33,983 bases of DNA from Planctomycetota bacterium (lineage in GTDB: Bacteria > Planctomycetota > Planctomycetia > Planctomycetales > Planctomycetaceae). Shown here piece by piece: positions 2,005 to 14,350 of this stretch. The notes under the pieces were generated by a model. That model had not been told where the DNA came from. It worked only from the letters and a program-made list of their open reading frames with translations, and ran no database searches. Numbering within the stretch: the stretch's first letter is position 1; the number at the start of each line of letters is the position of its first letter. Made by a program: the position numbers and the translations under genes. Location: contig JAQCEJ010000055.1 in the NCBI GenBank assembly GCA_027618475.1, positions 1 to 33,983 of the forward strand, read 5' to 3'.

Positions 2005-2371
2005 TTGGTCCGCAGATGTTCGCAGATGAACGCAGATTTAAGGAATGATCTTGATGTTCAAATGATGTTATTGATAGCTCTTTAACCAAACGGTAAGACC
2101 GCAGAGAAAGGCAAATTGGCCGCGAAAAAACACAAGAATCGCAAAAAAGAAAGAATAGGAATTCAAATCGAAAATTTCCCCAGCGATAGCATGTCGATCT
2201 TTTTGCGTCCTTTTGTGTTTTTTTGCGGCTATCCTTCTTCGTGGCTTTGAGATCGCTTCAGTGATACAAATTCAATGAGTGAGGCCTCCCTTCTTGAATT
2301 CTGCACCGCACCATGTTGTCTTTTTCATTTGCCTTCTCATCTGTGTTCATCTGCGAACATCTGCGGACCAA
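2005..2371. repeat. Family 1 palindromic repeat, copy A (MITE-like, 367 bp)
   Basis: Both ends carry the same sequence in inverted orientation. The left end (2005-2038) reads TTGGTCCGCAGATG... with three CGCAGAT units; the right end (2339-2371) is its near-perfect reverse complement, ending CTGCGGACCAA. A second inverted pair lies inside: TGGCCGCGAAAAAACACAAG (within 2117-2152) against TTTTGTGTTTTTTTGCGGC (within 2198-2229). The non-palindromic part at 2236-2338 is also nearly identical to copy C at 14219-14320, so this is a true dispersed element and not just a chance hairpin. It contains no coding potential. Other copies are at 9133-9349 and 14069-14350, with a fragment at 5681-5784. The rest of the 2001-2471 gap (2372-2471) shows nothing recognisable. 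Confidence 0.88.
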
Positions 2372-5680: not shown

Positions 5681-5784
5681 TAGCCGCAATAAAACCCAAA
5701 GGACGCAAAAAAGAGACGTGCTTTCGCCGACGAAATATTCTACTGGTATTCCTTTTTTGCGAATCTTGCGTTTTTTAGTGGCCA
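5681..5784. repeat. Family 1 repeat, internal fragment (copy D)
   Basis: The left arm (5681-5715, TAGCCGCAATAAAACCCAAA then GGACGCAAAAAAGAG) and right arm (5752-5784, CTTTTTTGCGAATCTTGCG then a TTTTTTAGTGGCCA end) form an imperfect hairpin. They correspond to the inner arms of copies A and C. The bases after it (TTCGGGGTATCGAGATTGCT) also resemble the sequence after the inner arm of copy A. The outer CGCAGAT ends are missing. It occupies part of the 390-base gap 5522-5911; I see nothing else recognisable in that gap. Confidence 0.72.
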
Positions 5785-5911: not shown

Positions 5912-7486
5912 TCACGACGTGGCAACATCGGCCGGTTGTGACTCCGGTTCGAGCAGCGGATACCGCCGCGATTCGAGTTCGATGAGCGTGCCATCGAGCG
6001 GTTTGGTCGAGACACCGGCCCTCGCGTCGTTCGCGGCGTTCATCGCTTTAAATCGAAACAGCTTCACAAAGGCGCCAACGACGAGTCCCACTTCGAGCTG
6101 GCCCAGATGTTTGCCGGGGCAGACGCGCGGGCCGTGGCCGAAGCCGAAATGCAGAACTTCTTTCGAGGCGAGCCCCTGCGATGCGAGATGTTCCCAGCGT
6201 TCGGGGACAAATTCACCCGCCGGATATCCGGTGACCGCCACCCCCCAGTGATCGTCGTGACGATTCGCATGCCACACGTCTAACAATAGATGTGTTCCCC
6301 GCGGAACCCATAATTTTTTGCCATCCGACGTTTCAATCCACGTGTCGGCGGTCGCTCGACGCGGCAAAAAGTACAACGACGGCGTCAGCCGCAGCGTCTC
6401 ATCGAGTACATGGCCGAGGTACTTCGCACCGTCGAGCGTCTCAGGGGTATAGACTTCGATCTCTTTGACTTCTTCGTACACCTTCGCTTGCGCCTCGGGA
6501 TTTCGCGCCAGATGCGAGATTGCCCAACTCGCATACGACGTCGTCGCTTCGAGCGCCCCCGCGAGAAAAACTTTGACGTTGCTGCGCAGTTTGTCGTCGG
6601 GCGCATCCGACTTGAACTGTCGCCACAGTCCCTTCTTCTCGGGCCGGGCGGCGAGCACGATATCGGTCAACTGCTCGAAATCGGCGTACGCTGTTTTCGT
6701 ATCCGCAATGCCGCGTGTCAAACTCGGCCAGCGCTGAACCGGCACGCCGATCTTGTTGATCACCGTATCGCGAACGATGTGGTCGATCACCCGTTCGAGC
6801 GCGGGAACGTACCGGTTGCGAATGTCGTCGTAACTGATCCCGGTGCCGAAAAAGTTGTTCGTCAGCATTTCGAGCATGACGGCTTTAATCTCGGGCTCGA
6901 GTTCGGTCTGCACGGGGTGACCGAGTTCCTGCACCCGTTTCTCCAGAAAATCGAGCCGCGTCCGTACGGTGTGGCGAAACGTCTCGGCGAATTCGAGAAA
7001 CTGTTCGGGCTGAAAGAGCGTCGTCTTGCCGAACGGCGGCGCGGCGAGTTTGCGTTGCCGCCGCCAGATCGCCCCGTTGGCGAACAGCAGCGTATCTTTC
7101 CCCGTCGCGCGGGCGATGCCGACCGACGGAAGCGTATCGCGATCGAACTGTCCCTCCTTGTCGCCGGTGTCGGTCGTGACGGCGCGAATGATGCGCGGAT
7201 CGCGCGTCACCAGCACCGGCGCAAACCCCGGCACATCGAGATAACGATTATGCCGTGCGGTCCCCAATACGTCATCGGCTTTCCAAAAGAACGTATCGAG
7301 CAGACGAATCGGCCGGTCGTAATTCCAGGGATGAGGAAACGGCACCGTCGGCCTCCCCGACCCCGGAGCAAACAGCGGCACCCGGCCAACTTCGATGTCA
7401 CCGGCAAACGGATACCGCCCGAGCAATTGCCCCGGCAGCCGGGTGAGCCAGTGAAGGCCGGGGATACGATTGCGGAGAGATGACAT
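5912..7486 (-). CDS. Cytochrome P450
   Basis: The 524-residue protein is a haem-thiolate monooxygenase-type P450. The haem loop FGFGHGPRVCPG (447-458) matches FxxGxRxCxG with Cys456 as the axial ligand. The ExxR pair is E363-R366 (DETLRL), FVPERW (426-431) is the PERF-like region, and W141-x-x-x-R145 is the C-helix signature. The I-helix segment AGALEATTS (309-317) departs from the usual A-G-x-D/E-T-T/S: an alanine sits where the proton-relay threonine is expected under one alignment. There is no N-terminal membrane anchor, so it is probably soluble. The ATG at 7486 is preferred; an in-frame ATG at 7525 lies inside a repeat end and would add residues encoded by the repeat. Substrate and redox partner are unknown; no ferredoxin or reductase gene is nearby. 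Confidence 0.92.
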   Translation of the reverse strand: MSSLRNRIPGLHWLTRLPGQLLGRYPFAGDIEVGRVPLFAPGSGRPTVPFPHPWNYDRPIRLLDTFFWKADDVLGTARHNRYLDVPGFAPVLVTRDPRIIRAVTTDTGDKEGQFDRDTLPSVGIARATGKDTLLFANGAIWRRQRKLAAPPFGKTTLFQPEQFLEFAETFRHTVRTRLDFLEKRVQELGHPVQTELEPEIKAVMLEMLTNNFFGTGISYDDIRNRYVPALERVIDHIVRDTVINKIGVPVQRWPSLTRGIADTKTAYADFEQLTDIVLAARPEKKGLWRQFKSDAPDDKLRSNVKVFLAGALEATTSYASWAISHLARNPEAQAKVYEEVKEIEVYTPETLDGAKYLGHVLDETLRLTPSLYFLPRRATADTWIETSDGKKLWVPRGTHLLLDVWHANRHDDHWGVAVTGYPAGEFVPERWEHLASQGLASKEVLHFGFGHGPRVCPGKHLGQLEVGLVVGAFVKLFRFKAMNAANDARAGVSTKPLDGTLIELESRRYPLLEPESQPADVATS

Positions 7487-7506
7487 GTCGCAGACTTTCA
7501 AATTCC

Positions 7507-7721
7507 GGGTGGCTGGGGCACACATCGATGATGATCGCCTCTGTCACACCCCATGCGCAAGACACGTTCGATTGAATGAAAACGCGACGGCCCCAGTCCG
7601 AATTGGCAAAAGACATCTTTTCTGAAATCGACTGGGGCCATGACGCGATTTGGTATCTGAAACTCTCGGCGAAAGCAATGCTTGAACTTCCGACAATGTC
7701 TTCCAAGCGCCCCAGCCACCC
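7507..7721. repeat. Family 2 palindromic repeat element, copy 2
   Basis: The terminal inverted repeats are GGGTGGCTGGGGC (from 7507) and GCCCCAGCCACCC (to 7721). The internal inverted pair is GGCCCCAGTC (7589-7598) and GACTGGGGCC (7630-7639). The element is 215 bp with no convincing coding frame. It lies immediately upstream of the P450 ATG, so it must hold or lie between the P450 gene and its promoter. Confidence 0.88.
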
Positions 7722-7790
7722 GCCGGGTGAGCCAGTGAAGGCCGGGGATACGATTGCGGAGAGATGACATGAAGCAGACTTTCAGATTCC

Positions 7791-8005
7791 GGGTGGCTGG
7801 GGCACACATCGACGATGATCGCCTCTGTCACACCCCATGCGCAAGACACGTTCGATCGAATGAAAACGCGACGGCCCCAGTCAGAATTGGCAAAAGACGT
7901 CTTTTCTGAAATCGACTGGGGCCATGACGCGATTTGGTATCTGATACTCTCGGCGAAAGCAATGCTTAAACTTCCGACAACGTCTTATAAGCGCCCCAGC
8001 CACCC
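7791..8005. repeat. Family 2 palindromic repeat element, copy 3
   Basis: This is the second member of the tandem duplication, offset 284 bp from copy 2 and keeping both nested inverted pairs. Its right end (8005) lies 1 bp before the first base of the stop triplet of the PLP-enzyme gene (8007-8009), so it abuts that gene's 3' end. Confidence 0.88.
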
Positions 8006-9132: not shown

Positions 9133-9349
9133 GTCCGCAGATTTTCGCAGAAAGACGCAGATGAAAAGACAATGATCAATTCAGGAAGAGCCGCAAAAGC
9201 ACGCAAAACCTCAGTATGGCATCATCTAACCTGTTCGTCCCTGTTTTGGTTTTTGTGGTGAAATCTCTGATGTATGATCTCTATGGACCTCGGTGTCTCG
9301 GTAGCTAATGTCCCTCTTAATCTGTGTTCTTCTGCGAAAATCTGCGGAC
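9133..9349. repeat. Family 1 palindromic repeat, copy B (217 bp)
   Basis: The left end GTCCGCAGATTTTCGCAGA (from 9133) and right end TCTGCGAAAATCTGCGGAC (to 9349) are an excellent inverted pair. Inside, AGAGCCGCAAAAGCACGC (about 9186-9203) is a weak remnant of the inner arm. The middle is shorter than, and mostly unlike, copies A and C. It fills the gap between the genes starting at 9074 and ending at 9361. Confidence 0.85.
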
Positions 9350-12375: not shown

Positions 12376-12987
12376 GTTGAGTACCTCAATATCGCGCGTT
12401 TAGGGGTCAGCAATGGGGACAGATCCTGCTATCAGACTGTATTGAACACGGGACGGCGTGCAGACACAAGCAACCGAAGGGATCGGTTCATTATTTCCAT
12501 CAGGAATTCACCCCTTTCATTCCTCCCAGCGGGTGATGCGGGAATGAAGTTGCGATCTTAAAGCCAAGAAGAATAAGGGACGCAATCAAACGCAAGAATT
12601 GATAAACTCCTGGAGATTCTCCGCGATCTCTGCGTTTCTATCTCGTTGCATTTTTTGAAACGCAAAGATCGCGGAGGACGCAGAGAGAAAGATCAGAGAT
12701 GACCAAAAGAGATTGTTTCCTTCTCTGCCTCTGTTGACTCTGCGTTTGATGGTATTCTATTTCGGCCTGACAGAGGTTAGCTGCAAATACAACGAAGGCT
12801 TTCGATGCCGTTGTTGTGCATTTCTCCCTTGTGATTCTATAATCGATTTCCAGATCTCTCACGTAAAACCACTATTCCCCTTAGAACTGGTTTCATAAAC
12901 CGGTTGGCGACAGAATCAACGTTCAAATTGTCCTGAAATATCTATCGTCCAGAGGGTTATGAAACTCTTGTAGTCAAAGGCTGCATC
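12376..12987. other. Long divergent intergenic region with palindromes
   Basis: These 612 bases separate the divergent esterase-like and sugar-isomerase-like genes. The central third holds the palindromic repeat at 12619-12744. Bases 12410-12440 contain GGGGACAGATCC, reminiscent of termini seen near REP-associated elements, but nothing pairs with it here. Both promoters must lie in this region; no box stands out. Short open frames look non-coding. Confidence 0.5.
12619..12744. repeat. Third palindromic repeat type (CGCAGAG / CGCGATCTCTGCG)
   Basis: A 20-nt arm, CTCCGCGATCTCTGCGTTTC (12619-12638), pairs with GAAACGCAAAGATCGCGGAG (12657-12676) with one mismatch and an 18-nt AT-rich loop. Immediately after, CGCAGAG (12679-12685) pairs with CTCTGCG (12738-12744). 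The design resembles family 1 but the sequence differs (CGCAGAG instead of CGCAGAT). Only one copy is in this window. Confidence 0.72.
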
Positions 12988-14068: not shown

Positions 14069-14350
14069 GTCCGCAGATTTTCGCAGATGAACGCAGATTG
14101 GCCGCAAAAAAACACAAAGGGCGCAAAAAAGATTGACATGCTATCGTCTAATAAATCTTCGCTTTGAATTCATCTGATTTCTTTTTTGCGATTCTTGCGT
14201 TTTTTTGCGGCCAATCTACTTTGTGGCTTAAGGATCGCTAAAGGGATACAAATTTAATGATTGAAGTCTCCCTTCTCGAATGCTGCACCGGACCATGTTG
14301 TCTTTTTCATTTGCCTTCACATCTGCGTACATCTGTGAAAATCTGCGGAC
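14069..14350. repeat. Family 1 palindromic repeat, copy C (282 bp)
   Basis: The left end (14069-14099) starts GTCCGCAGATTTTCGCAGAT and the right end (14321-14350) ends ATCTGCGGAC in inverted orientation. The inner arms are TTGGCCGCAAAAAAACAC (from about 14098) and TTGCGTTTTTTTGCGGCCAA (to about 14214). From 14219 onward it matches copy A base for base with scattered changes, including the shared CATGTTGTCTTTTTCATTTG. It fills the gap before the UDP-sugar pyrophosphorylase gene, whose promoter must overlap or follow it. Confidence 0.9.

Follow-up and report, generated by a model that had tools for sequence, protein, structure and literature searches.

Typical miniature inverted-repeat transposable elements (MITEs) come from DDE transposons and produce target duplications. 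Here we analyse a family of repeats in a 33,983-nt contig of a Planctomycetota bacterium (JAQCEJ010000055.1, hereafter the window; contig C92 of a draft genome of 5.93 Mb in 218 contigs) that, like bacterial MITEs, are short, non-coding, multicopy, mostly intergenic and bounded by terminal inverted repeats (TIRs), but at which no target duplications were found, and which have their ends in common with an element carrying a single GxxExxY gene. The closest functional analogue is the combination of repetitive extragenic palindromes (REPs) or bacterial interspersed mosaic elements with RAYT genes in 'REPtrons' (PMC3733652), where small dispersed intergenic inverted repeats are likewise placed near 3' ends and a single small nuclease gene is flanked by the repeats of the non-coding copies; RAYT, however, is a Y1 HUH protein with GTAG-tagged palindromes, whereas here we find a PD-(D/E)XK protein with triplets of spaced heptads. 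Dependence of a MITE family on a PD-(D/E)XK nuclease has been proposed for the Thiomargarita hupL MITE, with an origin from PD-(D/E)XK_2 (PF12784, YhgA) elements, but that nuclease family is another one and the MITE has 19-bp inverted repeats and 10-bp direct repeats (PMC4853749). Finally, the TIGR02436 four-helix-bundle elements, including 23S rRNA intervening sequences (PMC4990558), also present a ~120-aa gene between periodic inverted repeats, but with a different gene and with contiguous 7-mers in place of the spaced heptads of GxxExxY loci.

The repeats themselves resemble sites described in Geobacter metallireducens (Aklujkar et al., 2009; PMC2700814). That article describes a class 2 of 21 paired sites, each with the repeat TCTCCGTS[Y] (complementary to CACGGAGA) three times in tandem; the members of a pair lie on opposite strands at variable distance and are called global-regulator sites, five-fold heptanucleotides being another class. 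Three tandem units per site, opposite-strand pairing and variable distance are all found here as well; the unit is CGCAGAT in place of the CACGGAG of Geobacter, and CACGGAG ends occur at GxxExxY loci elsewhere. The main difference lies in interpretation, since the passages in question read the pairs as regulator sites, name no associated gene and do not treat them as elements. Literature searches on the heptad sequences and on GxxExxY found no paper connecting the repeats with the nuclease; a full-text search for GxxExxY returned two papers, neither of which deals with repeats in its title or abstract. To our knowledge, paired heptad repeats have so far been without an agreed explanation, and GxxExxY has been known only by its motif.

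A sequence-only reading of the window had proposed a dispersed family of non-coding elements with inverted ends, the CGCAGAT units being the recognised termini. Across the genome the dispersed family is borne out; its copies are mostly intergenic, and the CGCAGAT units are the conserved part of their ends. The end pattern CCGCAGATNNNCGCAGATNNACGCAGAT, allowing up to three mismatches, has 51 matches against none for the reversed pattern used as control, far more than chance would give. Each end consists of three decamers, GTC-CGCAGAT, TTT-CGCAGAT and GAA-CGCAGAT, that is, three bases followed by CGCAGAT, and the alignment of 45 distinct ends has an abrupt outer border, with 0.66 bit at position -3, then G (1.65 bits, at -2) and T (1.74 bits), then CCGCAGAT, and a weaker A-rich stretch, GAAAAGNCAAA, running to about +38. 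Sixteen inward-facing pairs of ends delimit elements of about 100 to 674 bp. By a simple open reading frame (ORF) call, 12 of 15 short copies are intergenic, and 10 of the 15 lie closest to the 3' end of a gene. The target duplications that the reading proposed to look for did not appear: no direct repeat of consistent length accompanies the 16 pairs at offsets 0-8. That the window repeats are non-coding, MITE-like members of this heptad-ended family is well supported.

Within the window, the copies designated A, B and C (Table 1, boundaries counted from GTCC to GGAC) were each read directly and recovered by the repeat finder, and their TIRs pair at 97% over 33 nt, 86% over 36 nt and 94% over 31 nt, respectively. 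As the initial reading had noted, A and C have in common not only their ends but also their inner inverted arms and a right segment (174 nt, 82% identity), B joins the same ends to another middle, and a separate fragment consists of the inner arms only; the span first given for copy A, 2005-2371, captured a real element but included three extra flanking bases that pair by accident. The inner-arm family, GCCGCNAA...CGCAAAAA, has 34 matches in the genome against 0 in the control, and the inner arms of both nested copies, together with the separate fragment, represent one second family, dispersed separately from the ends. Copies A and C are therefore composites, in which an element of one family is nested in one of another family built on the same design. 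The window also has a third heptad type.

The search for a full-length relative with a transposase gene between the same ends gave a partly different answer. Such a relative exists on contig C109 (4673 to about 5348; ~0.7 kb, 674 bp), the only paired-end element of gene size, but its gene codes for a GxxExxY PD-(D/E)XK nuclease and for no known transposase. The intact ORF (142 aa) matches TIGR04256 with 135 bits (cut-off 35) as well as PF13366, and the ends of the element pair over about 49 bp, taking in the A-rich subterminal part found in the MITEs; about 45 bp of terminal and subterminal sequence are common to both, so that, judging from its ends, this element would be the coding partner of the MITEs. 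The idea of a MITE family moved in trans by a transposase thus stands for the dispersed inverted-end family and its gene-bearing relative, but neither a known transposase nor target duplications were found. The only other GxxExxY gene of the genome adjoins a complete CACGAAA-heptad element, a type whose ends have only about four clear matches in this genome. Downstream of its gene, the C109 element also contains one copy of a repeat of about 98 bp (GTTTCATAA...TTATGAAAC), which lies in the window at 12880-12978 and has at least eight other copies in the genome (84-92%).

Beyond the profile match, the protein has the invariant E28, D68, E78, K80 and Q92 of the family; in a 14-member alignment G23, Y31 and E38 are invariant too, and these residues reproduce the layout of a PD-(D/E)XK site. 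An AlphaFold2 model (mean pLDDT 95.5) has as its closest solved folds SSO0001 (Z 9.9; 4ic1) and the archaeal Holliday-junction resolvase Hjc (Z 7.1), and in Pfam the family weakly resembles Cas4 and phage endonuclease I; a sequence search for a relative with a solved structure returned none. Cutting at junctions or hairpins would be a plausible activity for a protein associated with inverted-repeat ends.

The association of gene and repeats extends well beyond this genome. In a class sample of 118 genomes, GxxExxY is present in 65, and most of 30 loci fetched from the class have triple-heptad inverted repeats around the gene. In a cross-phylum sample of 80 loci, spread over many bacterial phyla and including a few from archaea, of which 74 were usable, inverted repeats (score of at least 15) flank 77% of the GxxExxY loci vs 1.1% of 275 neighbouring ORFs, and nearly all of these repeats are spaced heptads of the same kind as the window ends. 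Heptad pairs in the orientation of the outer ends lie upstream of GxxExxY in 58 of 73 cases (79%), compared with 1.3% of 707 background windows, the commonest heptads being CACAGAG, CACGGAG, CACGAAG and CGCAGAG. A degenerate triple heptad (CCRCRRAK...) occurs in 71 of the 118 class genomes (about 60%), with up to 173 matches per genome and nearly all zero for the reversed control; its median count is 12 in genomes with GxxExxY vs 0 in those without (odds ratio 10.5, Fisher p 7e-8, uncorrected for phylogeny). GxxExxY was found in eight plasmids and three viral contigs and in no phage record; in the one annotated plasmid case inspected (Bacteroides) it lies between radA and the gene of an FAD-dependent protein and is apparently a resident gene.

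Other small genes have other repeats. Inverted repeats accompany all 14 Y1/RAYT genes of the same genome (L089-L102; Smith-Waterman score of at least 17), but they are mostly REP-like palindromes and none is a heptad repeat, so that a Y1/RAYT transposase was ruled out as the mobiliser. The RAYT-flanking repeats belong to several different families within this one genome. In the class genomes, four-helix-bundle genes (TIGR02436; L215-L244) sit between inverted arrays in which 7-mers follow one another without gaps (e.g. TCAGCGGTCAGCTTTCAGC, GAGGGGCGAGGGGCG), so that a second pairing of gene and repeat exists in parallel to that of GxxExxY.

Since no relative had conserved synteny with the window, the signs of mobility all come from a related genus, represented by 17 genomes, and from copies of a sister heptad type rather than from those of the window. 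There, a site between two conserved genes varies among the genomes: the GxxExxY gene of G013 lies between heptad elements in a stretch of 845 bp, where its sister G008 has 39 bp (flanks 96-97% identical). At the same site, two complete MITEs enclose the gene in G104, G129 has a solo MITE, G069 has an element whose middle is foreign, and G108 has nothing. Two elements also differ in orientation between G013 and G008, each being inverted in place between its TIRs while its flanks are colinear at 94-96% identity. Element bodies at distant sites have sequence in common that begins at the TIR. We discounted a 123-bp insertion in G013 (L315) as a sign of mobility, as it lies in a multicopy region and has one arm only. 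Two further differences between these sisters were observed: a 1.5-kb heptad-ended stretch of G013 (L311/L313, G013:C1:1092023-1093572) with an ORF resembling, by eye, an IS110-family transposase, where G008 has about 46 bp, and an element end that G013 has in two direct copies at a distance of 753 bp (L339, G013:C1:6082574-6083352) and G008 only once.

Starting from the common ends, the gene-repeat association, the nuclease motif and, in the sister type, the presence/absence and in-place inversion, we consider it probable that these MITE-like elements are moved or processed in trans by GxxExxY, with joining by the host and no target duplication; GxxExxY as the acting enzyme, and the joining steps, are what we infer. 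The family would consist of small mobile elements whose boundaries are spaced heptads arranged as inverted triplets (here NNN-CGCAGAT three times, with a period of 10), and its gene-bearing form, found once in this genome and widespread elsewhere, has the same ends around a single GxxExxY gene. The ends may pair as a hairpin or cruciform, and GxxExxY would bind either the helically phased heptads or this hairpin or cruciform and cut, both in cis and in trans, after which the ends would be excised, flipped or re-inserted and joined by host repair or replication. Such a mechanism would account for the in-place inversions, the losses, the trans-mobilised non-coding copies and, because the host would do the joining, the lack of target duplications.

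Several observations weigh against this proposal. No empty site was found for the window copies among 24 related genomes, where the flanking genes are non-syntenic. The junction between occupied and empty states in G008 is not clean at the base level and contains 35 unrelated bases, a T-run being joined to an A-run as in the T-rich and A-rich flanks of occupied sites, and loss in G008 is as likely as insertion, because related species retain the gene at the site. Z scores of 7-10 for a predicted model indicate fold and not function. Across genomes, four-helix-bundle genes correlate with heptads about as well as GxxExxY does, so that the genome-level correlation is weak on its own, although among four-helix-positive genomes GxxExxY is still linked to heptads (p 1.6e-4). 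The seventh heptad base tracks protein distance over 85 loci (Mantel r 0.71, p 0.001), but this correlation is carried by a few divergent clades, and among the closest 63 loci heptad letters and protein distance are not significantly related. Finally, several heptad-rich genomes have no GxxExxY gene (G016, G050, G065, G086, G109). In G086 an alternative cargo was considered (L375) and rejected, as it is an ordinary ORF and the two heptads on either side of it differ in type.

The heptad-rich genomes that lack GxxExxY speak for the elements being mobile through another enzyme, either an unrecognised transposase or host replication and repair, and GxxExxY being a passenger carried or selected within them; recombination between inverted repeats can also yield in-place inversions with no special enzyme. 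We nevertheless regard this as unlikely, since a free passenger slot should carry many genes, whereas one gene family recurs between heptad ends in very different taxa and other small-gene families use other repeats. A more improbable view is that the paired heptads are sites for a regulator or chromatin protein, possibly autoregulating GxxExxY, with an old and passive dispersal. The 10-bp spacing, which sets the units on one helix face, speaks for it, as does the interpretation of the Geobacter pairs as IHF/HU or global-regulator sites (PMC2700814); against it stand the presence/absence, nested, inverted and composite forms seen in sister genomes, and whole element bodies common to distant sites and beginning at the TIR. 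Least probable of all is a role mainly as RNA, as 3'-end hairpins or transcript processing sites; the initial reading had named a bidirectional 3' end or mRNA hairpin as an alternative. The window copies do fold strongly (z of -10 to -11 as RNA, -10.5 as DNA) and most short copies lie nearest a 3' end, but the repeats have no match in Rfam, their middles vary, composites are nested, and elements with perfect TIRs fold well whatever their function. Insertions that the host tolerates, such as REPs (PMC3733652), are also typically found in intergenic DNA near 3' ends, and the position of the copies may simply reflect this tolerance.

If GxxExxY does act on these ends, we would tentatively go further and suggest that it may be the founding enzyme of widespread minimal mobile elements, in which a lone PD-(D/E)XK nuclease of ~120 residues, unaided by any DDE, HUH, tyrosine or serine recombinase, would mobilise elements by acting on triple-heptad cruciforms. 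The link between repeats and nuclease makes the heptads a testable mobile-element system and gives GxxExxY a likely role. The window repeats appear to be passengers on mobile DNA of a poorly known kind, whose gene form spans many bacterial and some archaeal phyla. Together, RAYT with REPs, four-helix-bundle proteins with contiguous heptamers and GxxExxY with spaced heptads suggest a principle whereby tiny trans-acting proteins each maintain their own class of short repeats.

The heptad elements of the window are collected in Table 1. Copy A begins 7 bp past an HD-domain gene and lies ahead of a DUF1501 gene, and copy C is flanked by a xylose-isomerase-like gene and a UDPGP gene.

Table 1. Heptad-ended elements and their parts in the window.
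Feature	Positions	Strand	Basis
Copy A: CGCAGAT-type element with nested CGCAAAA-type inner arms	2008..2368	none	repeat finder, direct reading, end-pattern match
Left TIR of copy A: three decamers NNN-CGCAGAT	2008..2037	+	exact pattern match
Right TIR of copy A	2339..2368	-	pattern match, 1 mismatch
Inner inverted arms in copy A, GCCGCGAAAAAACACAAGAATCGCAAAAA type	2117..2231	none	
Stand-alone CGCAAAA-type element, inner arms only	5681..5784	none	
Copy B: same ends as A and C, different middle	9133..9349	none	
Degenerate inner-arm copy, 75% complementary to the inner arm of copy C	12552..12606	none	repeat finder
Further heptad element, CGCAGAG type (CGCAAAG-CGCGGAG-CGCAGAG, period 9, inverted partner)	~12658..12747	none	direct reading
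Copy C: ends as in A and B, with the nested inner arms and the right segment also found in copy A	14069..14350	none	

Elsewhere in the window, positions 7438-8005 hold a 284-bp tandem duplication (96% identity) at the 5' end of a cytochrome P450 gene.
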